NCBI RefSeq assembly: GCF_001562255.1
Contig: NZ_CP014301.1
Span: forward strand, 1,302,001 to 1,366,000
Direction: 5' to 3'
From: Bosea sp. PAMC 26642
GTDB lineage: Bacteria > Pseudomonadota > Alphaproteobacteria > Rhizobiales > Beijerinckiaceae
Length of the DNA: 64,000 nucleotides
Below are positions 6,634-20,676 of this stretch, piece after piece. Positions within the stretch are counted from its first letter, which is position 1. Every line of letters starts with the position of its first letter. Below the pieces are notes generated by a model, which did no database searches, was not told the DNA's origin, and worked only from the letters and a program-made list of their open reading frames with translations. Position numbers and translations under genes: made by a program.

Positions 6634-6710
6634 GCGGGCGTAGCTCAGTTGGTTAGAGTGCCGGCCTGTCACGCCGGAGGTCGCGGGTTCGAGCCCCGTC
6701 GCCCGCGCCA
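6634..6710 (+). tRNA. tRNA-Asp (anticodon GUC); probable integration site
   Basis: Complete cloverleaf: acceptor GCGGGCG with CGCCCGC, anticodon stem CCGGC/GCCGG with loop CTGTCAC, T loop TTCGAGC, encoded CCA at 6708-6710. A tyrosine recombinase gene ends 62 bases downstream, pointing at this tRNA. That is the standard arrangement when an element has integrated into the tRNA 3' end and restored it. Confidence 0.95.
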
Positions 6711-6771: not shown

Positions 6772-8016
6772 TTACACTTTTCGGCCCGGTTTGTTCTTTC
6801 TGAGCTTCGCGCGGCCCTCCCGCCGATGCGAATCGACGTCTCGGACCGTCACAACATTCACCGGGTTGTAGGTCTGCTGAAGCCTGGTCGACGTTGCCAA
6901 GGTATTTGCCATCTTCGTCGAGATGGCTTGGGCGCTTGCGCCTCCGGCCGTCGCTTCAACAGTTCCCGATCGGCGCATGTCGGCAAGCTGACGCGTCTCA
7001 ACGAGACCGAATTCGGCGGTGCGAACGACCCGGAAATCAAAACCAAGCTTGTTCTTCGTGTAGGGCGCGGGCTGTTGGGGTTTGCCGCCCTTTGTGGTTG
7101 TGGCGCTGCCACGCGTCCTGAAAATCGGTGCGTTGGGCATCAGTTCGAAGGGCAACGATGCGATGTAGCCGTCGAGAAGATGGGTAGCCCGCTTACCGAG
7201 CGACCCGGCAGCGGCCCGATTGGTTTTGGCGCGAGCGAGAGCAAAAATGGCCCCCTGCAGATCGTCGGTTCGCTGCCCCGTCGTCAGAGAACGCAGGTCG
7301 ATGGGCGAGAGCTGGCTATCCCATGCCGTAGCCATGCAGGCCGCTAGGCCCTTGTAGCCCATCCGCCATGCGCGCTTGCAGAGGCGAACGACCTCGCCCT
7401 CGGTCCAGACCGCTTGGCGGGGCGGCGCGGTCGAATTGGCGATTGCAAGCGATGGGTCTTTTTTACCGTGGGTGTATCCCATCGCCTCCATAAGAACCCA
7501 CAGGGCTCGCCAGACCTTGATGACGCGATGGCGTTCCGTCGTGGATACCGCTGTCTCGATCTTTGGAATCAGGCCCTTCGCCAAGCCGCTGACCGGTTCG
7601 AGGCGAAGAAAATGCTCCGTCTCGATCGTTGCCGGATCGACGTCGCCGAAGACCGGCTCCAGCCATTTCCAGGCGCGCAGCCAGTCATCACGACTTTCTT
7701 GGTCCTTCGTTTGCCGCTGGCCTTTGGTGACGCGAGTAGCGGCACGCAATCTCAGAGCCCGATCGTAGGCCTCACCAACACTGCCGGTGGGCCACCGAGG
7801 GCGTGAGGTCGTCTCGCCGCATCGGATCTGATCCCACTCGTTGTTCCACCCGATAGCGCGGGTCTTGTCCTGAGCGCTTGGATAGTTCTTGCCTGCGATC
7901 ACCACGCCTGCACTCAGCGTCGTGAACCTGAAGCCGTGCGGCTTCATGTCCTTCGACGGCTTGTAGCGCCAACGCCGTCCCATGAAGATCAGGTGTCGGA
8001 TTTTGTCTTTTCCCAT
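6772..8016 (-). CDS. Divergent tyrosine recombinase (integrase)
   Basis: 414-aa protein resembling phage/ICE-type integrases. The catalytic half begins with a region resembling the Arg-I box (AWDSQLSPIDLRSLT). Box II is MRRSGT, where the usual HxxR His is replaced, and the nucleophile candidate is Tyr in RLQQTYNPVN near the C terminus. The order Arg, Arg, Tyr and their spacing fit the family, but the protein is far from the well-studied types. The ATG at 8016 was chosen because it follows the stop of the upstream small gene by one base. The gene reads toward tRNA-Asp, so it probably catalyses integration there. Two direct copies of CATTACACTTT (6747 and 6770) lie at its 3' end. Confidence 0.8.
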   Translation of the reverse strand: MGKDKIRHLIFMGRRWRYKPSKDMKPHGFRFTTLSAGVVIAGKNYPSAQDKTRAIGWNNEWDQIRCGETTSRPRWPTGSVGEAYDRALRLRAATRVTKGQRQTKDQESRDDWLRAWKWLEPVFGDVDPATIETEHFLRLEPVSGLAKGLIPKIETAVSTTERHRVIKVWRALWVLMEAMGYTHGKKDPSLAIANSTAPPRQAVWTEGEVVRLCKRAWRMGYKGLAACMATAWDSQLSPIDLRSLTTGQRTDDLQGAIFALARAKTNRAAAGSLGKRATHLLDGYIASLPFELMPNAPIFRTRGSATTTKGGKPQQPAPYTKNKLGFDFRVVRTAEFGLVETRQLADMRRSGTVEATAGGASAQAISTKMANTLATSTRLQQTYNPVNVVTVRDVDSHRREGRAKLRKNKPGRKV

Positions 8017-8017
8017 G

Positions 8018-8296
8018 TCACATTCGCTCGATGCGGTCATTCACCACCTCCCGAGCGTCGAGCGCCTGATTCCTGGGGGTTTGGACGGACCTGTTGTCCA
8101 TCCACTCGTCGATCCTCTTCAGGTCATAGTTGCCGGTGTCTGCATCCGCGGTAGGGAAGCCCCGCTTCACCAGCTGCGGCAGCAGAGCCTCGAACTCATC
8201 GATGGTGAGATGGAGCCGCCGCGCCGCCTTGGCGGGTGGAACGTCTCGTGGGTCTACCGAAAATCTTACGCGGCAAGAGCGAGGAACGCTGGGCAT
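8018..8296 (-). CDS. Small integrase-associated protein, possible excisionase or DNA-binding protein
   Basis: 92-aa protein containing the segment CRVRFSVDPRDVPPAKAAR followed by a helix-rich stretch (LTIDEFEALLPQLVKRGFP). Small proteins of this type are often found directly upstream of integrases in rhizobial mobile DNA. The shape (short, basic, helix-turn-helix-like middle) suggests a DNA-binding or excisionase role, but no known motif proves it. The ATG at 8296 is preceded by GAGG; a GTG just before it is possible. It abuts the integrase gene, so both are probably co-transcribed. Confidence 0.7.
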   Translation of the reverse strand: MPSVPRSCRVRFSVDPRDVPPAKAARRLHLTIDEFEALLPQLVKRGFPTADADTGNYDLKRIDEWMDNRSVQTPRNQALDAREVVNDRIERM

Positions 8297-8670: not shown

Positions 8671-9705
8671 TCAGGCACCACAGGGAGCAACCCGAAATAT
8701 CTTGTGTGTGCCAGGCTGGCCACTGAGGACCAACTGCCCTGTGAATGTATGAATGTTGTAAGCGTGGTCCACGCGCGCCAATGTCCACTCGATCGCTTTA
8801 TGGACCCTGGCCGTGTTCGGGTAGAGAGCCCGCTTCCGCCGGTTGCGGATGTTCGGGGTGGCGCGATGCGCGATGTAGTAGCGCACGAGATCCCATCGGA
8901 GGATCGTTGGCTCGCCCCTCGCCAAGCAGCCGGCGAAGACAGCAAGATCGAAGACCCGCCGATAGTCGATCTTCGCGGGCTCGCCGTGGACGAACGGCCA
9001 AATGTCGGCCGCGTTGACGCCGCTAACAAAGGAAAATTCGGTCATCTCCATGATGCTCAGTTTTGGCAGACCATCGAGCACATGGCGCGCGATGGTCTCG
9101 TCAGCCGGCCTGTTGCCCTTCTGGGCCTGATTGAAGACCTTTCGCATCCCTGATGCGATGAGTTGCGCCGCATTCCGCGCCTTGCCAACAAGCGCGATCG
9201 CGCGCCTCTGGCTCTCGATCATCGCCTTTAAGCCAGCGACATTTCCAGTCGCCTGGAAGTGGACGGCTTTGGCCGTCGGCAGATGGCCGCGATACTGATC
9301 GTCCCACGTGTGATCGCGAGTGGCGGCCAAAACGTTTCCCTTACGCAGCAAGGTTTGGCTGTCCGAAGGACCAAGCCAAACGCCGTGAAGCACGGCATCC
9401 AAGTCGGGAACTTGAGTTGGCTTTGGCGCTTGCTTGTGTGAATTCCGTACGACTGCCGCCAGCGCGCGGACCATTGTGTTTAAGTCCGAGATCAACAGGG
9501 CTTGGATCGCGTCGAGCCGATTTTCAAGATCGGTTCGTGCCGGAGCGCCAGCTCCCCCGCCCGGGAAAGCGTTAGCGCCGCCCACCCGAGATGAGACGAA
9601 GCGTACGGGAATGGGATGGCTCACCTGCCCAGGTCGCCGCAGAAACTGCGCGATTAGTATGGGGATCGTCTTCCAGAACATGAGTACCGACACATGCAAC
9701 TCCAT
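8671..9705 (-). CDS. Unknown protein of the integrative element
   Basis: 344 aa, no family recognised. The first 20 residues are hydrophobic (SVLMFWKTIPILIAQFL), which may be a membrane anchor or may mean the real start is further in. A Gly/Ala-rich linker (GGGAGAPA) follows, then a helical body with many charged residues. It is divergent from the RepA-like gene, and the 150-base gap between them is AT-rich, unlike its surroundings, and probably holds both promoters. No ribosome-binding site of note precedes the ATG. Confidence 0.55.
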   Translation of the reverse strand: MELHVSVLMFWKTIPILIAQFLRRPGQVSHPIPVRFVSSRVGGANAFPGGGAGAPARTDLENRLDAIQALLISDLNTMVRALAAVVRNSHKQAPKPTQVPDLDAVLHGVWLGPSDSQTLLRKGNVLAATRDHTWDDQYRGHLPTAKAVHFQATGNVAGLKAMIESQRRAIALVGKARNAAQLIASGMRKVFNQAQKGNRPADETIARHVLDGLPKLSIMEMTEFSFVSGVNAADIWPFVHGEPAKIDYRRVFDLAVFAGCLARGEPTILRWDLVRYYIAHRATPNIRNRRKRALYPNTARVHKAIEWTLARVDHAYNIHTFTGQLVLSGQPGTHKIFRVAPCGA

Positions 9706-9856
9706 ACCCGAATCAACATTCTCTAATTTTAATTCAACGTGAGAGAATCACCGAATCTGCTGTCGATTGGACGATACGCTAAAATTTTATGGAAAACCTG
9801 GTCTCGGCTTTTACGGCTTTACGTCAAGCTCTCGGAGACAAAAGGATCCATCGCCG

Positions 9857-10999
9857 ATGACGATCTCGACTTCAGGCTCAGACGATGGGCCGATCAGCGC
9901 GAACCAGTTGAAAGCGCGCTCATTTGCTCCGCTGAAGTTCGTTGTCGAGGGTCTGGTTCCGACTGGCCTGACAGTGCTGGCTGGTGAACCGAAGGCGAAA
10001 AAAAGCTGGCTCGCGCTGGATATCGCGCTGTCGGTGGCGCGCGGCGAAGCCTGCCTCGATAAGCGGAAGAACCTATGCCCCAAGGGCGCTGTGCTTTACC
10101 TCGCGCTTGAGGATAGCCAGCGGCGGATCAAGGACCGTATCGCGCTGATGCTTGGCGGTAGCCAGGAGTGGCCCGCCAATCTCTTCTTCGAGACAGACTG
10201 GCCTCGAATGGATGCCGATGGCCTGCTGCGAATTCGCCGATGGATAGAAGGGACGCCCGAAGCGCGCCTGGTCATTATCGACGTCTTCCAGAAGGTCCGT
10301 TCGAGAGCTGGTGGACGAGGGGGCTATAACAAGGATTATGATGACATTACCGAGCTTCAGAAGCTTGCCATGGAGAAGGAGATCGGAATTCTCCTCATCC
10401 ATCACCTCAGGAAGTCCGGCGGCGATCCCTTCGACCGCATCACTGGATCAAGCGGCTTCCAGGGAGCCTCCGACACGCTGATTGTGCTGGACAGGGGGCG
10501 AGGAGGAACACGCCTGCTGGCACGAGGCCGAGATATCGAGGAAATCGCACAGGAGCTGGCCTTCGATGACTTGGCGAAGCACTGGCGTCTCGCTCAGCCG
10601 CGCGCCGTCGTCAGCACTCATCCCGAGCGCGACCGTATCGTTCAACTCTTGGCCGCCAGCCGGACCCCACTCTCGTCGCGAGATATCGAGAAGGCGACTG
10701 GGCAAACGAACGATGCGGTGCGTCAGCTTCTCAAGAAGATGGTTGATGCCGGCGAAATCGCCAGAGTTGCCCGAGGCCATTATGTCAGTCAGACCGCAAA
10801 TGCTGCGTGGCCGGCTACGGGCGATCACAGCAATCACAACGATCACAATGCTCACGTAGTGAATTTCGCTTACGACAAGGATTTGAAGGAACGGGAGCGG
10901 CGAGAATCTTGGGCCTCAGACGCTCCGGATTATCCGGAAGACGACAATGCGACCGATCGCATGGCAATTGTGTACGAAGCCCTCGATAAGTTAGCGTAA
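9857..10999 (+). CDS. RepA-like AAA ATPase with C-terminal winged helix
   Basis: 380-aa RecA-fold ATPase of the AAA_25/RepA helicase type, found in plasmids, phage satellites and integrative elements. Walker A is GEPKAKKSW (the usual Gly before KS is Lys), Walker B is LVIIDVF, and LLIHHLRK matches the following RecA-core strand. Residues after about 280 form a likely winged-helix DNA-binding domain (SSRDIEKATGQTNDAVRQLL). The ATG at 9857 was chosen because AAAGGA lies 10 bases upstream; an in-frame ATG at 9767 has no such site. Probable role: replication or DNA loading of the element. It is the only rightward gene in the element. Confidence 0.8.
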   Translation: MTISTSGSDDGPISANQLKARSFAPLKFVVEGLVPTGLTVLAGEPKAKKSWLALDIALSVARGEACLDKRKNLCPKGAVLYLALEDSQRRIKDRIALMLGGSQEWPANLFFETDWPRMDADGLLRIRRWIEGTPEARLVIIDVFQKVRSRAGGRGGYNKDYDDITELQKLAMEKEIGILLIHHLRKSGGDPFDRITGSSGFQGASDTLIVLDRGRGGTRLLARGRDIEEIAQELAFDDLAKHWRLAQPRAVVSTHPERDRIVQLLAASRTPLSSRDIEKATGQTNDAVRQLLKKMVDAGEIARVARGHYVSQTANAAWPATGDHSNHNDHNAHVVNFAYDKDLKERERRESWASDAPDYPEDDNATDRMAIVYEALDKLA

Positions 11000-11197
11000 C
11001 GGCTGCCCACGGCGCGTTGCCTCAACCCACCAGTCGTGGGCCTCGGTTGTGCCGAACCGGCTACGATCGCAGTCTGAACCCGAATGTGAAGATCGAGAAG
11101 TGCGCTGGTACCCTCTGGCGGCTTCTGAGCCGGCAGAGGGACTGAGTCTGATTTGGGCCAACTTGGGATTCCAACGCGCAGCAGCTCGAGAGCGGTT

Positions 11198-12139
11198 CTA
11201 AACGTTCCCGACCCACTGGCTGAGCTTGACCTCAACGAACAGCTGTGGCGAGCCGCGAGACACGGTTCCGGTGAAGGTGAATCCGTGCCGGATCGCCGCT
11301 TGGAGGTGCAGCGGATCGTCAGTCGTCGCGCGCCCGTTGACAAGTTCCTGCACCGCGAGCTTGGCGTCGCGATCGCCGGTCCCGCGCCGCGCTGGCCAGA
11401 CCGCGATTTGGGCACAGGACAGATAGGCGGCGATAAGCGCACCTTCGGCCGCGAGCCGTGTCCGATGCATCGCCGGGCTAGGACGAAGCGCTTCCGCGAA
11501 CAGACGATCGGCGGCAGCGAAATAGTCCCGCGCTTTCTCCAGCGCGGCCTTCATGTCGAGACCCTCCGCCGCGAAGGCAGCCAGCATGGGGAGCTGCTCG
11601 GGCGTATAGATCTCCCGCGTCGGCAAGCTCTCGATCTCCGCGTCGAGGTCGAACCCAGTGACGGGCCAGGGGTATAGGGCACTCTCCCGTTCCGAGACGT
11701 TGGGCTGCGGCGGCACCGCGAGCTGCCCCGGGCTGAAGGCAGCCTGTGCGATGCGCCCGCGGACGTAGTCGCCACTGCCTTGCCAATTGGCCAGCCACTC
11801 GCGGTTGGGCTGCATGGCGACCTTGGCGTCCACATCGTCCAGGTTACCGACAGGGAAGATCGCGACGATCATCGCATGCGCCCCGGCGATGGTGAGCAGG
11901 GCGATACGTTCGAGCGCGCCGATGCCGTCCTGGCTGACGCTCCAGCCGTAAGCATTGCGATGAGCCACGGCCTTGACGGCGGCATCGCGCAGATCCGGCC
12001 TCGACTGACGCAGCGCTACCATGTCAGCGATCGCGGGGTCGTCATGAAGCCGGGCGAGGAGTGCCATGATGGGATCGGCGTGCTCGTGGCTCTCGCGATC
12101 GTCCTGCGGGACCGCTTGGAACTCGAGTTTGTTGGTCAT
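11198..12139 (-). CDS. Unknown protein, last gene of the leftward block
   Basis: 313 aa, no recognised family. The sequence is protein-like, rich in Ala, Asp and Arg, with long predicted helices (DPAIADMVALRQSRPDLRDAA near the N terminus) and no clear catalytic motif or membrane segment. The ATG at 12139 was chosen over an upstream frame that lacks a ribosome-binding site. It is separated from the preceding gene by a terminator-like hairpin, so it may have its own promoter. It belongs to the block with the AAA+ ATPase and ExoI genes. Confidence 0.6.
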   Translation of the reverse strand: MTNKLEFQAVPQDDRESHEHADPIMALLARLHDDPAIADMVALRQSRPDLRDAAVKAVAHRNAYGWSVSQDGIGALERIALLTIAGAHAMIVAIFPVGNLDDVDAKVAMQPNREWLANWQGSGDYVRGRIAQAAFSPGQLAVPPQPNVSERESALYPWPVTGFDLDAEIESLPTREIYTPEQLPMLAAFAAEGLDMKAALEKARDYFAAADRLFAEALRPSPAMHRTRLAAEGALIAAYLSCAQIAVWPARRGTGDRDAKLAVQELVNGRATTDDPLHLQAAIRHGFTFTGTVSRGSPQLFVEVKLSQWVGNV

Positions 12140-12199
12140 GAGAAAAAGTCCTGTTTTAGGGGTGACAACCAGTCGGCTGCATCTCCTCCCTCTCAAGAC

Positions 12200-12228
12200 A
12201 AAGGGCGCCCCACAGCGGGACGCCCCTT
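12200..12228 (-). terminator. Terminator-like hairpin in the leftward block
   Basis: A 12-bp stem with two G-T wobbles and a 5-nt loop, read on the minus strand after the gene ending at 12252, with TTT at its foot. Confidence 0.55.
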
Positions 12229-12251
12229 GCTGTCGTGGCTATGACGGTCGT

Positions 12252-13160
12252 TCAGTCGAGCGGGTGCGCCGCGAGCATGTCGCGCAGGGACTCCCCCATC
12301 TTCGCGGCCAGCGTCAGCGTCGCGGCGAACTTCGGCGTCGGGTGCGGGATGACCTCGCCGGCGAGCCTCGACCAGCGCTCGATCTCGGTGTGGGCCGAAG
12401 CGACCGCAATGCGCAGGAGCGCGATCCGGGCCTGGAGCTCCGCGCCCTCGAGCGCCATGGCGATGTCGTCATGCTGCTGGCGCGCGAGGTCGCGCTCGAC
12501 GAGCATCGCCGCAAGCCGCGCGGCCGCCCGAGCGTGAACGTCGACGTCGCGGTAGAGCGCCTCGAAGTCCGGGACCTGCACGACGAAGGCGCGCAGCGCT
12601 GCCGCGTCCTCGACGCTATGGGAGGTCGCCGGGCTCTGGTCCGAGGCCCCCTCGCGATAGCGCGCCACGGCATGGGCGAGCGCGTTCGTGGCGACCGCGC
12701 CGGCGGTGGTCGCAGAGAGGGTTTCGATCCCGAACGCGGCGCGGGCGAGCGGTTCGAGCGCCGGGTCATCGAGCTCCTGGACTGCCCGGATGAGAGCGAA
12801 GCCATGCTCACGCTGGGCGTGGCGGTCAGCCGGAGCTCGCGCCGGCAGCAGCGCGAGCGCGAGGGTCGCTTCTTCGTTCAGGATGGCGAGGGCATGCGGC
12901 GTCGCGACGTGATTGCGCACGAAGTAGGGAGCGGACACTTGCGCGAGTTCGATGAAGCGCTCGAGTTCCGCGGTGCGCTGGGTGCAGCGCGCCGCGATGG
13001 CGACCAGCGAGGGGCCGTTGCGGATGAATGCGGCATAGTCGCGGTCGGTCGGGTTCGAGAGGCTCATGGCGGCGAGTTCGCCGATGACGGGACGGATCGT
13101 GTCGTCGAAGGCGAGGTGGTGCAGGGAGATCGGGCTGGAATGGCTGCTGGCGGTGGTCAT
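12252..13160 (-). CDS. Unknown protein, paralog A of a two-member family
   Basis: 302 aa, of unknown function. It is clearly homologous to the product of 16036-16932: about half of residues 13-72 are identical by hand alignment, with shared TIRPV/TLRPV, ELAA.SL, RDY and ERFI.L. A second shared block is PAR..ADRHA.RE.G.A, and a third near the C terminus is LQ.RIAL.R.A.A. It is all-alpha in appearance, with no signal peptide or membrane segment. The upstream gap has a hairpin (13186-13200). Two diverged copies kept intact in one element argue for a real, selected function, perhaps as interacting subunits. Confidence 0.75.
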   Translation of the reverse strand: MTTASSHSSPISLHHLAFDDTIRPVIGELAAMSLSNPTDRDYAAFIRNGPSLVAIAARCTQRTAELERFIELAQVSAPYFVRNHVATPHALAILNEEATLALALLPARAPADRHAQREHGFALIRAVQELDDPALEPLARAAFGIETLSATTAGAVATNALAHAVARYREGASDQSPATSHSVEDAAALRAFVVQVPDFEALYRDVDVHARAAARLAAMLVERDLARQQHDDIAMALEGAELQARIALLRIAVASAHTEIERWSRLAGEVIPHPTPKFAATLTLAAKMGESLRDMLAAHPLD

Positions 13161-13185
13161 GTCTGTCTCTGGATCGATTGGGTGA

Positions 13186-13200
13186 TCGCCCCTGGGGCGA
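13186..13200 (-). other. 5' leader hairpin before paralog A
   Basis: A perfect 7-bp stem (TCGCCCC with GGGGCGA) around one base, about 30 bases upstream of the start at 13160. It could be part of the leader RNA or an operator; similar GC palindromes sit before other genes of the block. Confidence 0.4.
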
Positions 13201-13254
13201 CGGATCAGGATGGGGACGAAGTGCCGGACGCGGCGAGCGCGCCCGGCGTGGCGA

Positions 13255-14115
13255 TTAGGCCGCGACCGGCTGCGGGCCTGCGGATTGGTTGTGACGCCGC
13301 AGCGCGTGCTGGCTCGGGCTCGCCCAGCTCTGGCAGGCGACTGGGGCGATGCCGGTGACGTGCTGGAAGAGGATCTGTTCGATGATGGCGAGCAGGCGAT
13401 CGGCGTCCTCGCCGCGCGGCCGGAAGAGATAGAGCTCGTCGGCGGGCGAGATCCGCGTCGCGCGCCCGAAGCGATAGACCGTCGCGCGCTGCAGATCCTG
13501 CGGCGCGAGGCCGAGCAGCGAGCAGTGCGCCGTTCCCGCTGGCGAGACGAGCCACCCGTTGAGGGAGGCGTTCTGCATGGCGGCGTGGAGCCGCTTGTCG
13601 AACGCGCGGGCCGAGAGGTCGTGCGGGAGAACGACCGAGATCGCGCGCGGCTGCAGCTCGACCGGCGCGCCGGCCTTGGGTGCCCGGGTTGGAAGGATCT
13701 GCTGCAGCATCCAGGCGTCGAAGCCGAGGTCGTTGACCGGCCCCGAGGACGTCTCGCGGTACGACCCGTAGCGGTCGGCGTTCATTGCCCTGAGACGATC
13801 GCGGGGATCGGCGCACTGGGTCGAGGACACTTTGTAGATCGGCAGCTGGAGATCTCGGGCGACGCCGAGGAGACCGGTGCGGACGCTCGGGTTCGCGTAG
13901 CTCTCGCCGCACGCTCCGACGTAGACGTTGACGACGTAGCCCGCCTGATAGGTTTCGGTGAAGCGGGGACGGGTGAACGCGTCCGCCGGCAGCGCGGCGA
14001 TGCCATTGCCGCCGATGTGCTCCCAATCGGTCGGGTACCACTTCGTGACGGCGGCGGCGGAATGGGCGGGCTGGATCGGGCGGCCGATCCGGCCCGAGGT
14101 CTTCTTGTTCGACAT
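13255..14115 (-). CDS. Unknown protein, faint GIY-YIG/T5orf172-like region
   Basis: 286 aa. The N terminus is basic (SNKKTSGRIGRP). Residues about 55-120 contain YVVNVYVG, then LPIYKVSST, RDRLRAMN and DRYGSY. This order faintly recalls the Y-V-G / Y-K-V / R-L-N pattern of T5orf172 nuclease-like domains, but key residues cannot be confirmed. The C-terminal half has no recognisable motif. The ATG at 14115 is preferred to one 33 bases upstream. It sits between the AAA+ ATPase gene and paralog A. Confidence 0.6.
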   Translation of the reverse strand: MSNKKTSGRIGRPIQPAHSAAAVTKWYPTDWEHIGGNGIAALPADAFTRPRFTETYQAGYVVNVYVGACGESYANPSVRTGLLGVARDLQLPIYKVSSTQCADPRDRLRAMNADRYGSYRETSSGPVNDLGFDAWMLQQILPTRAPKAGAPVELQPRAISVVLPHDLSARAFDKRLHAAMQNASLNGWLVSPAGTAHCSLLGLAPQDLQRATVYRFGRATRISPADELYLFRPRGEDADRLLAIIEQILFQHVTGIAPVACQSWASPSQHALRRHNQSAGPQPVAA

Positions 14116-14247
14116 GGTCTTGAGCTTTCTTTGCTTCTGGTCGTGCACAGGTCCCTGGGGGTTCTTTTCCCAGAGCTTGCGTCCTTTCGATTTCCCCTGG
14201 CTCGTCGACCTTGGGTCTCTTCAACGGGACCGGCTGATGTCGCTGGC

Positions 14248-15450
14248 CTAGGGACCCGCCCCGTCCCGTTCACCCCTCGCGGCGAGGAAGCCGATCGGCC
14301 GCGCCCGCACCGCTCCAGCGACAAGCGTCTCGGCCGCGACGATGTCGGCGATCGTCAGCCCGTCGCGCCCCTCAGCGGCCGCAAAGCCGAAGGCCAGGCG
14401 CAACAGCTTGCCGAGGCGGCGCGGATTGTGCCGTGCGGCCCGGCGCAGGACGTCCTCGGTGGGCATGGCGACGCCGCCGCGCAGTTCGGCGACGATGTTG
14501 GCGGCGATCAGCCCGGTGATGGCCAGAAGCGCCTCGTCACGCGGCTGGGCGATGGTGAACACCGTCAGGCGGTCGATGATGAAGTCCGGGAGTGCATCGA
14601 CGTCATTGGCAGTGGCGATGAAGATCGCCGCCGACAGGTCGAAAGGCACGCGCACGAACTCGTCCAGGAGCGCGCGGCTGTTCTCGCCTTCGAGGACGGT
14701 CAGGAGCGTGTGGTATGGCTTCTCCGAGGAGTGGGTCGAGAGCTTATCGACTTCGTCGAGCAGGATGACGGGCTGCGCCGTCGATCCCATGGCCATGGCC
14801 TCGGTCAGCTGCCCCATGCGCGCTGCCTTCCACGACGTCGGGTGGCCGACGACCAGCGCCTGGGCGTCGCTGTTGGTGGCGCAACTGATCGCGTGGATCT
14901 CGGTCCCGAGCGCGCGGGCGATCTGCTGGCTTGCATGCGTCTTACCGGTGCCGGGAGGTCCGAGCAGCAGGATGGGCGGGACGAAGAGCGGCGTGCCCGT
15001 GCGCCGGGACAGGATCGTGGCGCGGATGACGAGGTCGATGACCGCCTCGAAGCCGGGGCAGAGGCGACGCGTCCGCGTCAGCGCGCTGACCATCGCGTCG
15101 GTACCGAACAGCAGGGGCCGGCGACCTTCTTGGGCATCGTTGTAGAGCGCGACCAGTCGGTCGAAACGGAGCTGGTCGGGCTCGCTGAAGCTCGGCAGGG
15201 GTGAGCCGAGATATTCCTCCCGATCGCCGTGCCAGCGGCGACCGATCATCAGCTCGATCTGCCGTAGGGCGACACCGTGGTCGTAGACGGGGACCGACGG
15301 GGCCGCGTCGACAACCGCCTCGGGGATCGGTGGCTCAGCCGGCAGCACCGGCGCCGCGGGCGGATCCTGCGCCGCGACTGTGAGGACCTCCTCGTCGGCC
15401 ATCTCGGTGATGTAGCGTTCAGGCGAGCCCCTGCGGCGGCGAATGGTCAT
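14248..15450 (-). CDS. AAA+ ATPase (ClpX/Lon-like core)
   Basis: 400-aa AAA+ protein. A Pro/Ala-rich N-terminal region of about 50 residues is followed by a helical segment, then Walker A GPPGTGKT (about residue 173), Walker B ILLDEVDKL, sensor-1 IFIATAND, and an arginine-finger region near FIIDRLTVF. The C-terminal small domain has PRRLGKLLRLAF. It lacks a protease domain, so it is more likely a remodelling motor than a Lon protease. The 585 bases upstream carry four palindromes, a hairpin and a triple repeat, the richest regulatory region in the window. An ATG at 15402 is an alternative start. Confidence 0.8.
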   Translation of the reverse strand: MTIRRRRGSPERYITEMADEEVLTVAAQDPPAAPVLPAEPPIPEAVVDAAPSVPVYDHGVALRQIELMIGRRWHGDREEYLGSPLPSFSEPDQLRFDRLVALYNDAQEGRRPLLFGTDAMVSALTRTRRLCPGFEAVIDLVIRATILSRRTGTPLFVPPILLLGPPGTGKTHASQQIARALGTEIHAISCATNSDAQALVVGHPTSWKAARMGQLTEAMAMGSTAQPVILLDEVDKLSTHSSEKPYHTLLTVLEGENSRALLDEFVRVPFDLSAAIFIATANDVDALPDFIIDRLTVFTIAQPRDEALLAITGLIAANIVAELRGGVAMPTEDVLRRAARHNPRRLGKLLRLAFGFAAAEGRDGLTIADIVAAETLVAGAVRARPIGFLAARGERDGAGP

Positions 15451-15535
15451 GTCTGGTCACGTCCCAAGTCCGCGGCGGGAACGTCCTGTCGCGGGGTGGC
15501 CGGTCCGGCCCTCCACGCGCGCGGCTCGAACGGAA

Positions 15536-15563
15536 ACAGGCGACGCCTCGCGGCGCCGCCTGT
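15536..15563 (-). promoter_or_regulatory. Leader hairpin of the AAA+ gene, possible attenuator
   Basis: ACAGGCG and CGCCTGT arms extend to a 10-bp stem with one G-T wobble, followed on the minus strand by TTTCC. It lies between the four palindromes and the AAA+ start, so it would be in the leader RNA. Confidence 0.4.
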
Positions 15564-15572
15564 CGCGTTTTC

Positions 15573-15668
15573 GAACGATGTTCGTTTTTCGAGCGGACTC
15601 CCGCCGAACGTTGTTCGCTGACCCTAGAACATTGTTCGGAGAGCAGATTTCGGTTTCGAACACCGTTC
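15573..15668. promoter_or_regulatory. Four phased GAAC-N3-GTTC operators
   Basis: Perfect 11-bp palindromes at 15573-15583 (spacer GAT), 15606-15616 (GTT), 15627-15637 (ATT) and 15658-15668 (ACC). Three are extended to CGAAC-N3-GTTCG. Centre-to-centre distances are 33, 21 and 31 bases, close to 3, 2 and 3 helix turns. This suits cooperative binding of one dimeric repressor to one face of DNA, 120-220 bases upstream of the AAA+ gene. The half-site is LexA-like, but the spacing differs from the GTTC-N7-GTTC alphaproteobacterial and the N4 Gram-positive LexA boxes. Confidence 0.8.
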
Positions 15669-15758
15669 GGGCAGTCTGGATATGACCAGCCTAGCTCCAT
15701 ACGCAGAAGGCAGGATCCAGGGGCATGAATGTCCTAGCGCGACGCCATCGCGCTTCCA

Positions 15759-16007
15759 CGGGCAAGCCCTCGTCTTCCCACGGGCCTGTGGACCAGACGC
15801 CGTAGGGACAGGCCAGGGAGACCGGCCTCGTTTGGCTTCCTCGGGCAAGCCCCGGCCTTCCCACGGGTTTTGTGGTGGGACGCCGCGGGGAGAGGCCAGG
15901 GAGTCCGTCCCTGTTTGGCTCCCACGGGCAAGCCCCGGCCTGCCCTGGCTTTTTGTGCTGGGACGCCGCTGGGGGAGGCCAGGGTCACGGTTGGTGTCTT
16001 CGAGGCC
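15759..16007. repeat. Three-copy 83-bp tandem repeat
   Basis: Units start at 15759, 15842 and 15925, an exact 83-base period. Each begins CGGGCAAGCCC and includes a GACGCCG segment and GGCCAGGG. Units are diverged in the middle but keep length. The array lies between the AAA+ promoter region and the 3' end of paralog B. I see no open frame in it that resembles a protein. Confidence 0.85.
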
Positions 16008-16035
16008 TCCCTGTTCGCGATGGCCAGCCATAGCG

Positions 16036-16932
16036 CTAGACGCGCGGCGGGTGGGCTGCGGCCATAACTCGGAGCCGATCGCCAACGGAGAGCGCCAGGA
16101 TCAAGGTTGCCGCCACCTGCGGCGGCGCATCGTTGATCGCCGCGTAGACGTGATCGAGGGCGGCATCGCGGTCGGACAGGTGCGCGGCGAGAGCCAGTCT
16201 CGCAAGCGCAATGCGCTGCTGAAGGGTTGCCCCCTCAGCCGCCGCACCCGTCAGCCCCCTATCCTCCGGCGAGAGGTCGCGGCGACGCAGGCTCTTCCTG
16301 AAGCGGTCGGCCATCTCGCCATGATGCTGCGCCTCGCGAACCAGCGCGTCGATATCCGGCTGGGCCTCGAGATAGGCCAGCAGGGTGCCGTGCTCCTCCA
16401 GCCGGTGAATGGTGGCCGGGCTCTCGGCGCCCGTCCCCAGCAGACGGGCGATGTAGGAGAGAATGTCCGAAGTGACTTCTTCGGCGTCGATGTCGCCGAG
16501 CTCGAAGGCGATCTCGATCACCTCCCGAAGATCGTTGGTTTCCGGCTCCTCGAGCCGGTGCAACATGGCGTGGCCCTGCTCGCGGCGGGCATGCCGGTCT
16601 GCACCGCTCCGGGCCGGGATCAGCGCCACCGCGATGCTGGCAACAGAGTTGAGCCGAACGACAGCGTGGAGCTGGCCGACATGCCGGAAGAAGATGTCGG
16701 GATCGCTGCCGTCGGTCAGCGCGATGAAGCGCTCGTGCTCTTGGGCGTGCTGGAAAGCCCGCGTGGTCATCGCGACGATGGCCGGCGGATGGGAGAAGAA
16801 TCCGGAATAGTCGCGCAGCGTCGGCGCGTTGAGCGACACGGCAGCGAGCTCGTCGATGACGGGACGCAGGGTCCTGTCGATCCTGAGGTCGCGCAGGGTC
16901 GCTGGCGCCCGCTCGCGATGGGATTTGGTCAT
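16036..16932 (-). CDS. Unknown protein, paralog B of a two-member family
   Basis: 298 aa, homologous over its whole length to paralog A (12252-13160). Shared features are TLRPVIDELAAVSL, LRDY, ERFIAL, the PAR..ADRHARRE block, and a C-terminal LQQRIALARLALA segment. It is helical and soluble with no known motif. The ATG at 16932 has AGGA ten bases upstream; an earlier in-frame start lacks a site. The terminator at 17041-17073 separates it from the ExoI gene, so it is probably transcribed from its own promoter. Confidence 0.75.
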   Translation of the reverse strand: MTKSHRERAPATLRDLRIDRTLRPVIDELAAVSLNAPTLRDYSGFFSHPPAIVAMTTRAFQHAQEHERFIALTDGSDPDIFFRHVGQLHAVVRLNSVASIAVALIPARSGADRHARREQGHAMLHRLEEPETNDLREVIEIAFELGDIDAEEVTSDILSYIARLLGTGAESPATIHRLEEHGTLLAYLEAQPDIDALVREAQHHGEMADRFRKSLRRRDLSPEDRGLTGAAAEGATLQQRIALARLALAAHLSDRDAALDHVYAAINDAPPQVAATLILALSVGDRLRVMAAAHPPRV

Positions 16933-17040
16933 GATGTGATCGTCCTGGAATGTCGGCCTGAGTTCCCCGGGGTGTGGTCCCCTTCGCCTCGCCACTTCCT
17001 CGTCTCGCCCCGCTCAGGCCGTTCCCGTGCCGCGTCATGA

Positions 17041-17073
17041 GAAAAGGACGCGGACCTCGCGGCCGCGCCCTTC
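17041..17073 (-). terminator. Terminator after the ExoI gene
   Basis: Stem of 11 bp or more with one G-T wobble, read on the minus strand, followed by CCTTTTCTC. It lies 27 bases after the stop at 17100. Confidence 0.65.
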
Positions 17074-17099
17074 CTGTCGTCATCATCTACGGAAGACCC

Positions 17100-18521
17100 T
17101 CAGGAGGCGGCCAAGACGGGTACTTCCTCCACCCCTTGCGGCAGCGCGTCGCGGCGCTGCAGGAGCCAGGCCCTGATCTCATCGAGCGCGGCCAGCAAGC
17201 CAGGTTCGATCGTCGCGGCCAGTTCGTCGCAGCGCGCCAACGCCTTGGGAAAAGTCAGCCATGGCACCTCGTCCTCGGTCGTGAGGCGGTGCTGCAGCCA
17301 GTCCCGGCCCCTGCGCCGAGCCTCGGGCGAGAGCGCCTCCGGCGCGTTCAGGAAGATCTGCCGAAGCGCCAGGCTGCGCAGCCGAGGGTCTCTGATGTGC
17401 CAGGCGGTGAAGTTCTCGCGGAACTTCCACTCGATCTCGTGGAAGCGCTGGCAAGCGGCGACATCGGCGTCCGAGACGAAGCCGCCCGAATAAAGCTGCG
17501 CTTCGGGCCAGGGCGATACCTCGCGATCGACGTACTGGTCCTTGAGCGCGAGGGCGAGCTGACGAAGGAATGTCGGGTGCGCCCACAGCGCCCGGGCCCG
17601 ATCGCGATAGACATGATCGGGTTCGGGATCGACCAGGGCATGGGCGGCCTGGTGCCATGCGAACAGGATGGGCATGGCGTTCGTCTTCACCTGTCGCACC
17701 GGTGACCGGCTCGACCGGATCCGGACGAGCAGGTCCGGGGCGGCCAGGTCGATGAACCCGGCGGGGTCCTGGCTGAGGTCGATGCAGACCCGGGCGTTGG
17801 GATTGGTTGGCGAACCGATCGTGGGCAGCACCGGCGTCAGGCGCGAAGTTCCACCAAGGATCAGCGGCTCTCCCGGTTCCATCAGGGCGATCGGGCCTGA
17901 TTTCTTGGCGTGACCCAGCATCGTCGCCATTGTCATCGGCGCCTGGTCGAGCAACAGCATGAACAGCTCGCGGGTCGCCCTGACGTCGGCGAGCGCGTCA
18001 TGGGCGTCGTCCTCGCTGAGCGCTATTCCATTCGCCCTGCACACCGCGCCGAGCTTGAGCACGGCCTTGCCGGCGGCGTCGCGCGGGATCATGACGGCCT
18101 CCGGTTCGACCATCACGATCGCGCGCAGGCTCGTCAGCACGTCTAATCGGCCGTGACCGGTCATCGAGGCTGCGTAGGGCGGCAGCAGTGTCTGGAAGAA
18201 CGACTGCCGAACCATCTCGTCGTCGAACCGAATATTATTGTAGCCGACTAACATAGTTGGCTTACAGTCGGCGAGGATCCGGGCGATCTGCGCCATCATC
18301 TCGAGATGGCTTAGCGGCTGGTTTTCCAGCATCGCCGGCGTGACACCGGTGATTAGCAGCGCATCCGGCGACGGCACGACATGCACGGGCAAGCGGCAGC
18401 GCAGCGTCAGCTCGCGTTGGACGCGGTGATCTGCGTCGGCTTGTACGAACGCCGCCTGCAGCGGCATATCGACGCAGGGACCGAGTCCGGACGCCTCCAG
18501 ATCAAAGTAGAGAAATGCCAT
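17100..18521 (-). CDS. sbcB: Exodeoxyribonuclease I (DEDDh 3'-5' exonuclease)
   Basis: 473 aa, the usual length of ExoI, which degrades single-stranded DNA 3' to 5'. All catalytic residues of the DEDDh class are visible: Asp and Glu in YFDLEASG, Asp in GYNNIRFDDEMV, His and Asp in AHDALADVRAT. The C-terminal SH3-like and helical extensions of ExoI follow (WKFRENFTAWHIRDPRLR). The ATG at 18521 was chosen; a GTG at 18530 that overlaps the upstream stop (GTGA) is possible and would couple translation. ExoI sits here inside a mobile element rather than among repair genes. Confidence 0.85.
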   Translation of the reverse strand: MAFLYFDLEASGLGPCVDMPLQAAFVQADADHRVQRELTLRCRLPVHVVPSPDALLITGVTPAMLENQPLSHLEMMAQIARILADCKPTMLVGYNNIRFDDEMVRQSFFQTLLPPYAASMTGHGRLDVLTSLRAIVMVEPEAVMIPRDAAGKAVLKLGAVCRANGIALSEDDAHDALADVRATRELFMLLLDQAPMTMATMLGHAKKSGPIALMEPGEPLILGGTSRLTPVLPTIGSPTNPNARVCIDLSQDPAGFIDLAAPDLLVRIRSSRSPVRQVKTNAMPILFAWHQAAHALVDPEPDHVYRDRARALWAHPTFLRQLALALKDQYVDREVSPWPEAQLYSGGFVSDADVAACQRFHEIEWKFRENFTAWHIRDPRLRSLALRQIFLNAPEALSPEARRRGRDWLQHRLTTEDEVPWLTFPKALARCDELAATIEPGLLAALDEIRAWLLQRRDALPQGVEEVPVLAAS

Positions 18522-18526
18522 GGCGA

Positions 18527-18964
18527 TCACTGCGTCCGGCCGAAGGGCTGGTCGAGCGGCATGAGCACCATGTTCAGGCGCTCCGCATCGGCCTTCATCG
18601 CCGCCTCGATCATGATGACGGCGTGCGAGCGTGCGACCTCGCCCTTGAGCTGGCCCATGGCCTCATAGGCGTGCACCTTGAGGGCCAGCACGTCGCGCAG
18701 CGTCGTGGGCGCCTCAGCCATCAGCAGCGCCATCCGGCGCGCCGCGATCCTCGCGCCCTCGGCCAGCTGCTGGCCGTTGAGGCCATGGTCGCTGAAGACG
18801 CGCTCGGGCGCCTCGCCCAACAGCATCGCATGCGCATGGGCGGTTTCCCATTTGAGGAAGAGGGCATCGGCACTCTGCGGGGACGCATAGGCCCTCGCGT
18901 ACAACCTCATCTCGCTATCCTCCGGCAGCGCTTCGTCGCCGCCGGCAAAATTCTTGGTCGTCAT
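18527..18964 (-). CDS. Unknown small helical protein upstream of ExoI
   Basis: 145 aa, acidic at the N terminus, then helices rich in Ala, Met and Arg (WETAHAHAMLL; ARIAARRMALLM; APTTLRDVLALKVHAYEAM). This A-x-T-x-x-D-V-x-A-K type of pattern occurs in many short unknown proteins of phages and integrative elements. It ends 5 bases before the ExoI start, or overlaps it if GTG is used, so the two form an operon. It may be a partner of the nuclease, but nothing in the sequence proves that. The leader has a strong hairpin at 18979-19004. Confidence 0.65.
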   Translation of the reverse strand: MTTKNFAGGDEALPEDSEMRLYARAYASPQSADALFLKWETAHAHAMLLGEAPERVFSDHGLNGQQLAEGARIAARRMALLMAEAPTTLRDVLALKVHAYEAMGQLKGEVARSHAVIMIEAAMKADAERLNMVLMPLDQPFGRTQ

Positions 18965-19405
18965 GTTGTTCGTCCATAGGAGCGCGGGCCCGGGGGCCCG
19001 CTCCATGGGCACTTTTCTCCGGGGGTCACCCCTAATGGGTTCCGTTTCCCGACTTGTTCGCTCTCTTCTGCGGAGCGCCGGCAGGGTTGTATCTCTGCAC
19101 GGCCATCGAAGCGGTCTGATCCTAAAGTGATCCAACGGGCAATTGTGGCCCATAGCAGGCGCTCGAAATGTCTGCTTTTTGGTAGGATGACTCGTGGAAT
19201 CAGGTCATTGCGAATCCTGACTGGCTTCGACGATCCCCATCCGCTCCCGAGGCGTCTCTTGATCTTGGGGGCGTCAACAGACCTTTTGACCGGCTTCGAG
19301 CCGACCGGTTGATCCCTGTAGTTCCGCCGGGGTTTGGCAGCATCCATGTGTTGTTATAAACGGAGGGGGCATGGTGCCGGTAGAAGCGAAAGGCTCAAAG
19401 TGATG
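18965..19405. other. 441 bases without a supported gene
   Basis: Contains a very GC-rich imperfect palindrome (18979-19004, GGAGCG-GGGCCC arms) just upstream of the gene starting at 18964. After that the DNA has mixed composition and no convincing open frame. The right limit of the integrative element may lie here, but no att repeat was seen. Confidence 0.5.
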
Positions 19406-19775
19406 CTAGTGGACGATGCGCCATTTGCCGTCGACGCCTCGGAACCCCAGCGTCGTCCGAACCATATTTCGACATCAACGCCATCCTTGCGCTTGCCGGT
19501 GAATGGCCGAGCGAATGGGTAAAGGCGACGGCGCCAGAGGCGGCGACAGTCACGTCGCGATCCTCCCAACGCGGCGGCGCTTCGTAGAGGACGAGCCAGC
19601 CCGTGGTCCCCTCGCGCACCGAGGCTTTGCCGCCGCTGTGCAGCAGACCGAACATGTCAAACACGGTGATGTCCTCAGCGATCGACGAGACGATTGTTTC
19701 GACATCACCCATCGCGACTGCGTCTCCGCGCGCCGCGATTAAGGCGCGTATCGCACCTTTTTCCGTAGCGCTTAC
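19406..19775 (-). pseudogene. Decayed SnoaL-like (DUF4440-type) protein
   Basis: The first half reads as a ketosteroid-isomerase-fold protein (ALIAARGDAVAMGDVE, then ITVFDMFGLLHSGG). The rest is spread over two other frames: GKRKDGVDVEIWF after about 19500, then RTTLGFRGVDGKWRIVH after about 19457, ending at 19406. The second break is explained by loss of one C in an original TTCCGG. The expected start overlaps the stop of the DUF899 gene as GTAA, where an ATGA or GTGA would be normal, so the start is also lost. The two genes were probably one operon. Confidence 0.8.
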
Positions 19776-20482
19776 GATCCATACTCCAACTTGGGATACC
19801 AGTCGGTTCCGCGACCCCCGGGCGTCAAATCGAGAATCGACCATAGCGACGCGATGTCCGGCGCGTCGCGCGGGTCCTGACCAGGGTCCGCAAGCTCCAT
19901 CGACATTTCGCTGGCCCAGAACAGCCGCACCTTGCCGCCATCGCGCCTGAACACGACTAGCGCGGGGTTTTCGGTGCCATCGTCGTTGAGCAGTTTTAGG
20001 TCGCTGGCATAGTCATCGCCGATCGTTTGGACAAAATCGAGGTGCTCCCAGCCGCGCTCGAAGGCGAAACGAAGCTGCCGCTCGACCGGACTACGGCCAA
20101 GGATCTTTAGTGCTACTCGCTGCTTGATGTCGGCGGCGTTGCCGTTCACCGCGCCCAGCCAGTTCGTGCACATCGGGCAAGGCCGCTCTCGCTTGGGGCC
20201 ATACATCCAGAAATAGGTCACGAGCGCATCATGATCGCCGAACAGGTCGATCAGACCGATGTCATTGCCGTTCCCGTCCTTGAAGCGATAGTCTTTTTCG
20301 ATAACAGGGCCTGGAGGAAGCGCACGGCGCTGCTCGCTCAAGCGGGTCATGTCACGGCGGAATTTGATTTCGTCGGCAAGCAACGCCTGGCGCGCGTTGC
20401 GATACGCATCGCTTTCGCCGGGGAAAGGCGTACGGCCCTTTTTCGCCAGGTCTTTCGGGTTGGCAGCTGCCTCGGTGGCCAT
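19772..20482 (-). CDS. DUF899 family thioredoxin-like protein
   Basis: 236 aa. It matches the DUF899 family by its AARQALLADEIKFR-like N terminus (NARQALLADEIKFRRD), LPPGPVIEKDYRF, FGDHDALVTYFWMYG and the CPMC pair in RPCPMCTNWL. The fold is thioredoxin-like, but the biochemical role is not established. The ATG at 20482 was chosen because GAAGGAA lies 7 bases upstream; a start at 20527 would add 15 residues. The SnoaL-like remnant follows with an overlap. Confidence 0.85.
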   Translation of the reverse strand: MATEAAANPKDLAKKGRTPFPGESDAYRNARQALLADEIKFRRDMTRLSEQRRALPPGPVIEKDYRFKDGNGNDIGLIDLFGDHDALVTYFWMYGPKRERPCPMCTNWLGAVNGNAADIKQRVALKILGRSPVERQLRFAFERGWEHLDFVQTIGDDYASDLKLLNDDGTENPALVVFRRDGGKVRLFWASEMSMELADPGQDPRDAPDIASLWSILDLTPGGRGTDWYPKLEYGS

Positions 20483-20676
20483 GGCGTGTTCCTTCAGTGT
20501 TCGGTCGAGCGCTTCGTAGAACCCCATTAGAAACGCCGACTGGGTTTTTCAAAGAACGCGAGGTTACGTAATGCTATCCGTTCGTTCGGGCCGACTGTAT
20601 CTATTCACGACAATTCCACAGTCATATCTCTGCGTACCATCTTCTTTGCGCGTTTGAGTTCGGGTGACGGCAACCT

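Follow-up and report, generated by a model that had tools for sequence, protein, structure and literature searches.

Seven leftward genes of Bosea sp. PAMC 26642, located at one end of an integrative element, constitute one recurring operon that is inherited as a set within its genus. The genes lie in a stretch of 64,000 nucleotides, which we refer to as the window, and in the direction of transcription they read g7, ExoI, parB, AAA+, g3, parA and g1 (Table 1); the members of the operon are presumably co-regulated. Consistent with the earlier description of seven intact genes, made from the sequence alone, all of the open reading frames (11198-18964) are free of internal stops. For three of them the raw frame is longer than the likely gene, and the starts of g1, parB and g7 were placed at 12139, 16932 and 18964, respectively. 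The choice for g1 follows from an RNA leader that stops at its ATG and from the resulting length of 313 aa, which matches the open reading frames of two other loci (L038 and L039).

Table 1 Features of the operon and of the adjoining end of the island (positions in the window)
Feature	Position	Strand	Remarks
tRNA-Asp	6634..6710	+	Island insertion site; its 3' end is repeated at a distance of 131 kb (genome 1439938-1439957)
Probable tyrosine recombinase	6772..8040	-	422 aa; identified by location and eye only; no match in Pfam
RepA-like AAA_25 ATPase	9767..10999	+	Weak C-terminal HTH matches; accessory; 67% relative beside the operon in L048
g1	11198..12139	-	Helical paralog by sequence reading; 313 aa, counted from the ATG where the leader ends
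Two-hairpin RNA leader before g1	12137..12235	-	E 4.3e-20; copy among the 22 model sequences
parA	12252..13160	-	Helical paralog by sequence reading; 302 aa
g3	13255..14148	-	297 aa; conserved family without known match; possible GIY-YIG-like fold
AAA+ ATPase	14248..15450	-	Kin of the Lon AAA part; protease domain absent
Cluster of three CGAAC-N3-GTTCG palindromes	15572..15669	.	Expected number in the whole window 0.13
83-bp tandem repeat	15752..15984	.	2.8 copies; parB-AAA gap
parB	16036..16932	-	Helical paralog by sequence reading; 298 aa
Exonuclease I (DEDDh)	17100..18530	-	476 aa; Pfam and structure-sequence alignment
g7	18527..18964	-	145 aa; small conserved protein without known family

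Recurrence of the gene set within Bosea

A search of 61 genomes with g3 returned 35 places, all of them in 17 genomes of the genus, and none in the 24 genomes from other families of the order. We analysed 28 neighbourhoods, including the window, which also take in two further places; the remaining five were dropped (contig edges and weak fragments). Rather than being scattered, or conserved in ExoI alone, all five gene families of the operon (g7, ExoI, par/g1, AAA+ and g3) are present together in 21 of the 28 neighbourhoods, which bears out the proposal of a real multi-gene system. Among the seven incomplete neighbourhoods, two (L048 and L056) are cut off on the relevant side by the end of the stretch fetched or of the contig, and five (L036, L042, L046, L057 and L060) have no ExoI and g7 nearby. 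The g7-ExoI pair leads the operon in 21 of 21 cases, with AAA+ and g3 placed later and, in the sub-type of the window, parA and g1 following g3. The genome of the window holds four copies (the window itself, L004, L005 and L036, the last being the one that lacks ExoI and g7).

The same association is seen at the level of whole genomes. Operon-type ExoI, defined by an E value of 6e-153 or better (29 genes in 16 genomes), occurs in 16 of the 17 genus genomes with g3 and in none of the 20 without it (Fisher p 1.3e-9 over the 37 genomes, relatedness ignored). In the single g3-bearing genome that lacks it (G021), the operon is cut short by the end of the g3 contig, and there is no ExoI elsewhere. 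G012 has its ExoI-g7 pairs at a large distance from the g3-AAA loci, and one of the 20 g3-free genomes (G029) has a divergent ExoI that is not of the operon type.

In protein searches, which scored the 8000 best candidates, we found 85 relatives of g3, 35 of par/g1 and 240 of g7 (120 of the latter listed), in collections one of which may leave out near kin of the window. The named relatives among the matches listed are mostly Bosea, with a few assigned to Hyphomicrobiales only and a few bins labelled Leifsonia, Hyphomicrobium, Methylobacterium and Stutzerimonas. A plasmid search with g3 gave one match (38% identity), on a Bosea replicon, and a search of a genome-contig collection, from which near kin of the window may be absent, gave none. 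Judged by title, none of the papers listed for Bosea and genomic islands concerned this operon.

Components of the operon

The prediction of a complete DEDDh exonuclease I is confirmed by Pfam (PF08411, E 1.3e-21; RNase_T, E 9.6e-9), by an alignment with E. coli ExoI covering residues 5-416 (1fxx, E 3.5e-35; the protein also aligns to 4jrp) and by the invariance of D10, E12, D103, H177 and D182, which we take to be the DEDDh catalytic set, in 13 aligned copies picked from the 21 loci with ExoI. The protein resembles exonuclease I (SbcB/XonA) in having a DEDDh nuclease and C-terminal domains, but differs from it in that the genome of the window encodes it in island operons alone. Since all three ExoI copies of the 5.5-Mb genome sit within these operons, ExoI is not a housekeeping gene here; the idea of a borrowed housekeeping enzyme is thus abandoned, all the more as ExoI is present in just 12 of 248 other sampled genomes of the order (E 1e-40 or better). 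PADLOC models for the SbcB of DRT systems (RTasSbcB, E 6.7e-70) and for DEDDh proteins also matched, although, unlike in those systems, a reverse transcriptase was matched in none of the seven operon proteins.

Outside the genus the enzyme keeps other company. In 80 ExoI loci of other organisms (L180-L259), where the ExoI identity is 26-34%, none has g3, par/g1 or g7 beside it, and the same holds for five further neighbourhoods of the order outside the genus (L109-L113); some AAA match is found in six of the 80 (best E 4e-26, L234). A search of viral contigs with ExoI gave no match. In two other families (L111:8565-10873 and L112:8630-10957) ExoI follows, by eye, an HTH gene and an ImmA-like gene, another recurring ExoI context. 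Within the genus, g7 stands directly upstream of 28 of the 29 operon-type ExoI genes, the exception (G035) being an incomplete match to ExoI; the g7 match at G009:1197409, which is among the 28, is interrupted by a stop. Neither of the two divergent ExoI genes (G029 and G009:C1) has g7 beside it. Additional g7 matches comprise one in G007 and stop-bearing pieces in G010, where stop-interrupted relatives (G010:C1:3257348-3257800 and 3183292-3183639) are likely decayed operon remnants.

The AAA+ protein matches PF00004 (E 6.3e-17), and its best NCBIfam model is Lon, over the AAA part only (E 6e-30). It differs from the Lon protease in its length of 400 aa, its own N-terminal region and the absence of a serine-lysine protease domain, in agreement with the motor without protease that had been read from the sequence; in PADLOC it matched generic AAA models only. 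When 289 genomes of the class were searched, operon copies scored 1e-140 or better and, among the matches listed, those outside the genus 2e-40 or weaker; the latter are mostly frames of about 800 aa, and because of this length we take them for Lon.

Searches of Pfam, NCBIfam, PADLOC and PHROGs gave nothing significant for the remaining five proteins (parA, parB, g1, g3 and g7); g7 yielded a single weak NCBIfam match (E 8e-4), far under the cut-off. parA and parB are 39% identical (E 1e-50), so the sequence-only reading was right about their kinship. Its count of just two paralogs does not stand: operons carry between one and five par/g1 genes (none in L057), and g1, which gives only weak local matches to the par genes and was aligned together with them, is probably a third, more distant member of the same superfamily. 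To judge by their sequences, the par/g1 proteins are helical. A weak fold match of g3, with a low Z, to the GIY-YIG type (Slx1) hints that g3 may be a distant GIY-YIG nuclease, a group that includes the T5orf172/MUG113 type beside Slx1. It differs from these nucleases in its Pfam profile, as a scan of 56 members matched seven families, none of them GIY-YIG and none in more than three members; PDB sequences gave no usable match, and Foldseek against the PDB returned nothing with an E value under 1.

Many of the paralog genes share an RNA leader, which lies between genes, forms two hairpins and ends at the start codon. A model built from 22 copies gave 70 matches in 28 sources; assigned by the nearest downstream stop, 64 of them belong to par/g1 genes and two each to g3 and AAA+, while the last two lack a gene. 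Of the 82 par/g1 genes, 63 follow a leader, parA and parB of the window being without one. On the fitted alignment 96.8% of the cells are paired and 11 of the 13 pairs change on both sides somewhere, levels that none of 500 shuffles reached on any measure and that compare with 23-56% for slid versions. In a comparison of nine genomes, all 42 matches fell in operon-bearing ones (six of six) and none in the three that are operon-free. In G000 there are seven, all at the four operons and six of them outside the training set; other genomes contain several weak matches and one strong match (G012:3245865) outside the fetched loci. An Rfam scan of 9500-20600 gave only two matches, both under the gathering scores. 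Hairpin 1 is followed by T and thus terminator-like, and hairpin 2 stands shortly before the start codon; we infer that the leader regulates the downstream gene.

In the window, the gap between parB and AAA+ contains both the 83-bp tandem repeat and the three palindromes (Table 1). Both elements are matched in the corresponding gaps of L038 and L039; L040 carries an 83-bp repeat of its own ahead of AAA+, with about ten palindrome-like sites by eye, and palindrome clusters are additionally present in L054, L057 and L060. L037, a close relative that belongs to the sub-type of the window, has a gap of 151 bp with neither element, so the operon can persist without the array. Several other sub-types have no exact palindrome but do have one long gap, which in some of them contains, by eye, a small HTH-like frame. 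In one sub-type, a small frame resembling an XRE-type HTH protein by eye occupies an operon gap (L044:13696-14220, L046:4577-5021 and L051:6873-7339).

Islands, tRNA genes and recombinases

The operon of the window lies at one end of a 131-kb island. This island extends from tRNA-Asp to a second, identical copy of 20 bp of the tRNA 3' end (genome position 1439938), a site without a whole-tRNA call; this repeat substantiates the integrative element proposed earlier. Recurrence of the set beside integrases and in unrelated genomes had been proposed as a check. The first part holds in 21 of the 28 Bosea neighbourhoods, in which a recognisable recombinase adjoins the operon on its g3/g1 side, and the second does not, as all belong to one genus. 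The recombinases comprise a DUF6538-type tyrosine cluster (15 by BLAST, two of them Pfam-checked), four other tyrosine enzymes (that of L058 under the Pfam cut-off) and two serine enzymes, and in many loci tRNA genes of several kinds lie beside them. Other frames recur in this region: the operon of L049 is accompanied by a 37% relative of a 344-aa frame of the window (8671-9705), and two proteins without known function, encoded between operon and recombinase, share a region of 29% identity (L041:11177-13060 and L062:74-1459; E 3e-10). In L060 (7004-9447), two consecutive frames that look recombinase-like by eye, with no Pfam match, adjoin the operon that lacks ExoI and g7.

In G010, three copies of the tRNA-Leu end (878387, 975014 and 1126469) delimit two tandem islands that each open with an integrase and the operon, and G009 has five tRNA-end sites, two of them with one mismatch; ARAGORN called a whole tRNA at none of seven far copies of tRNA ends. 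The five islands bounded in this way by tRNA 3'-end repeats measure 131, 97, 151, 69 and 54 kb. At the thresholds used, the operon families alone have relatives in all five, a result that is partly due to selection because the islands were chosen for holding g3 (the gene picking for this comparison missed g3 and AAA+ of the window island, both of which are present there). Four of the island integrases are related, and that of the window island is not. The tandem islands I2, I3, I4 and I5, which form two pairs, have an operon copy each. Two tandem segments of G009 (I6 and I7) are without the operon, and since I7 has an integrase, the operon is not needed for integration.

VirB4 (PF03135) was matched in none of five genomes, and the coupling protein (PF02534) in none of G000, G009 and G010 and somewhere in the genome in G012 and G024; of 14 control genomes, the VirB4 model matched one and the coupling-protein model five. 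Going by these two Pfam models, ordinary conjugation appears not to be at hand in G000, G009 and G010. A MobA/VirD2-like relaxase lies beyond g7 in L049. The Bosea islands therefore share with ICEs and other tRNA islands a tRNA-side integrase, direct repeats of the tRNA 3' end and tandem copies, but differ from ICEs in their core operon of unmatched families and, in three genomes, in the absence of matches to the two conjugation models.

Possible roles of the operon

The explanation that we tentatively prefer, while giving it slightly less than an even chance, is that the operon is the constant core of large tRNA-integrated Bosea islands and processes the island's own DNA in excision, copying, repair or transfer. 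The helical paralogs would assemble on DNA, perhaps at the palindromes and the 83-bp array where present, and would be remodelled by the AAA+ ring; g3 would cut or nick, ExoI with its close partner g7 would trim 3' single strands, and the leaders would set paralog levels. We prefer this reading because the operon keeps its position whereas its integrase, tRNA and cargo differ from island to island, because the tandem islands I2-I5 each keep a copy, and because the operon is bound to one genus. Against it stand the operon-free segment with an integrase, defence genes in the slot beside the operon, the dispensable array, the split arrangement of G012, the coupling protein in G012 and G024, the relaxase in L049 and the weak fold match of g3. 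It is possible, but in our view rather doubtful, that these elements constitute a non-conjugative type of mobile island characterized by ExoI, a protease-less Lon-type AAA+ protein, a GIY-YIG-like nuclease and leader-controlled paralogs, with exchangeable integrases and an undescribed route that moves or maintains 50-150 kb of cargo.

An unlikely though serious alternative is anti-phage or anti-plasmid defence, in which the varying paralogs would sense, AAA+ would activate or assemble a complex, and g3 and ExoI would destroy DNA. Nuclease, ATPase and varying paralogs are a usual composition of defence systems, the operon is patchily present (17 of 37 genus genomes), and the slot between integrase and operon is occupied by known defence genes in two loci, L037 (12635-15584, a PDC-M68A/B pair) and L040 (13343-15766, TRIP13 and a CBASS cyclase); of eight neighbour proteins scanned with PADLOC, five matched. 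Just past g7, L054 (11710-14226) encodes a large P-loop-like protein resembling LmuB/PtuA-type ATPases, and L004 (9315-13634) another with no Pfam or PADLOC match. However, the gene set matches no system described in PADLOC 2023, and among the operon proteins themselves five of seven have no match there, hits being confined to the models for DRT SbcB and DEDDh in the case of ExoI and to generic ones in that of AAA+. Defence systems usually spread wider than one genus, to which this operon is confined; in addition, a genome can contain as many as four copies (one of these partial), placed at the integrase end, and we recognised no toxin-like effector. On balance, processing of island DNA appears the better account.

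We consider improbable a further reading of the operon as a cassette for gene shuffling or regulation, in which leader-bearing paralogs would swap between islands by way of leaders and arrays while ExoI and AAA+ would serve recombination. The variable number and order of paralogs between operons, the frequency of the leader before paralog genes (63 of 82) and the recombination effect of ExoI in E. coli are in line with such a scheme, but gene order looks stable within sub-types. That the genes are unrelated cargo, neighbours by chance, is highly implausible, as the part-sets at seven of 28 loci, two of them cut off by the end of the stretch or contig, are outweighed by the co-occurrence of 16 of 17 versus 0 of 20, the common leader RNA and the fixed g7-ExoI head.

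If the defence reading were true, the operon would represent a system absent from the defence library that was searched. In either case it unites several unmatched protein families with an RNA leader lacking an Rfam match in the window, and provides a defined gene set for deletion and assay. As a compact, co-occurring operon at the integrase end, it bears on how large islands without conjugation genes move.
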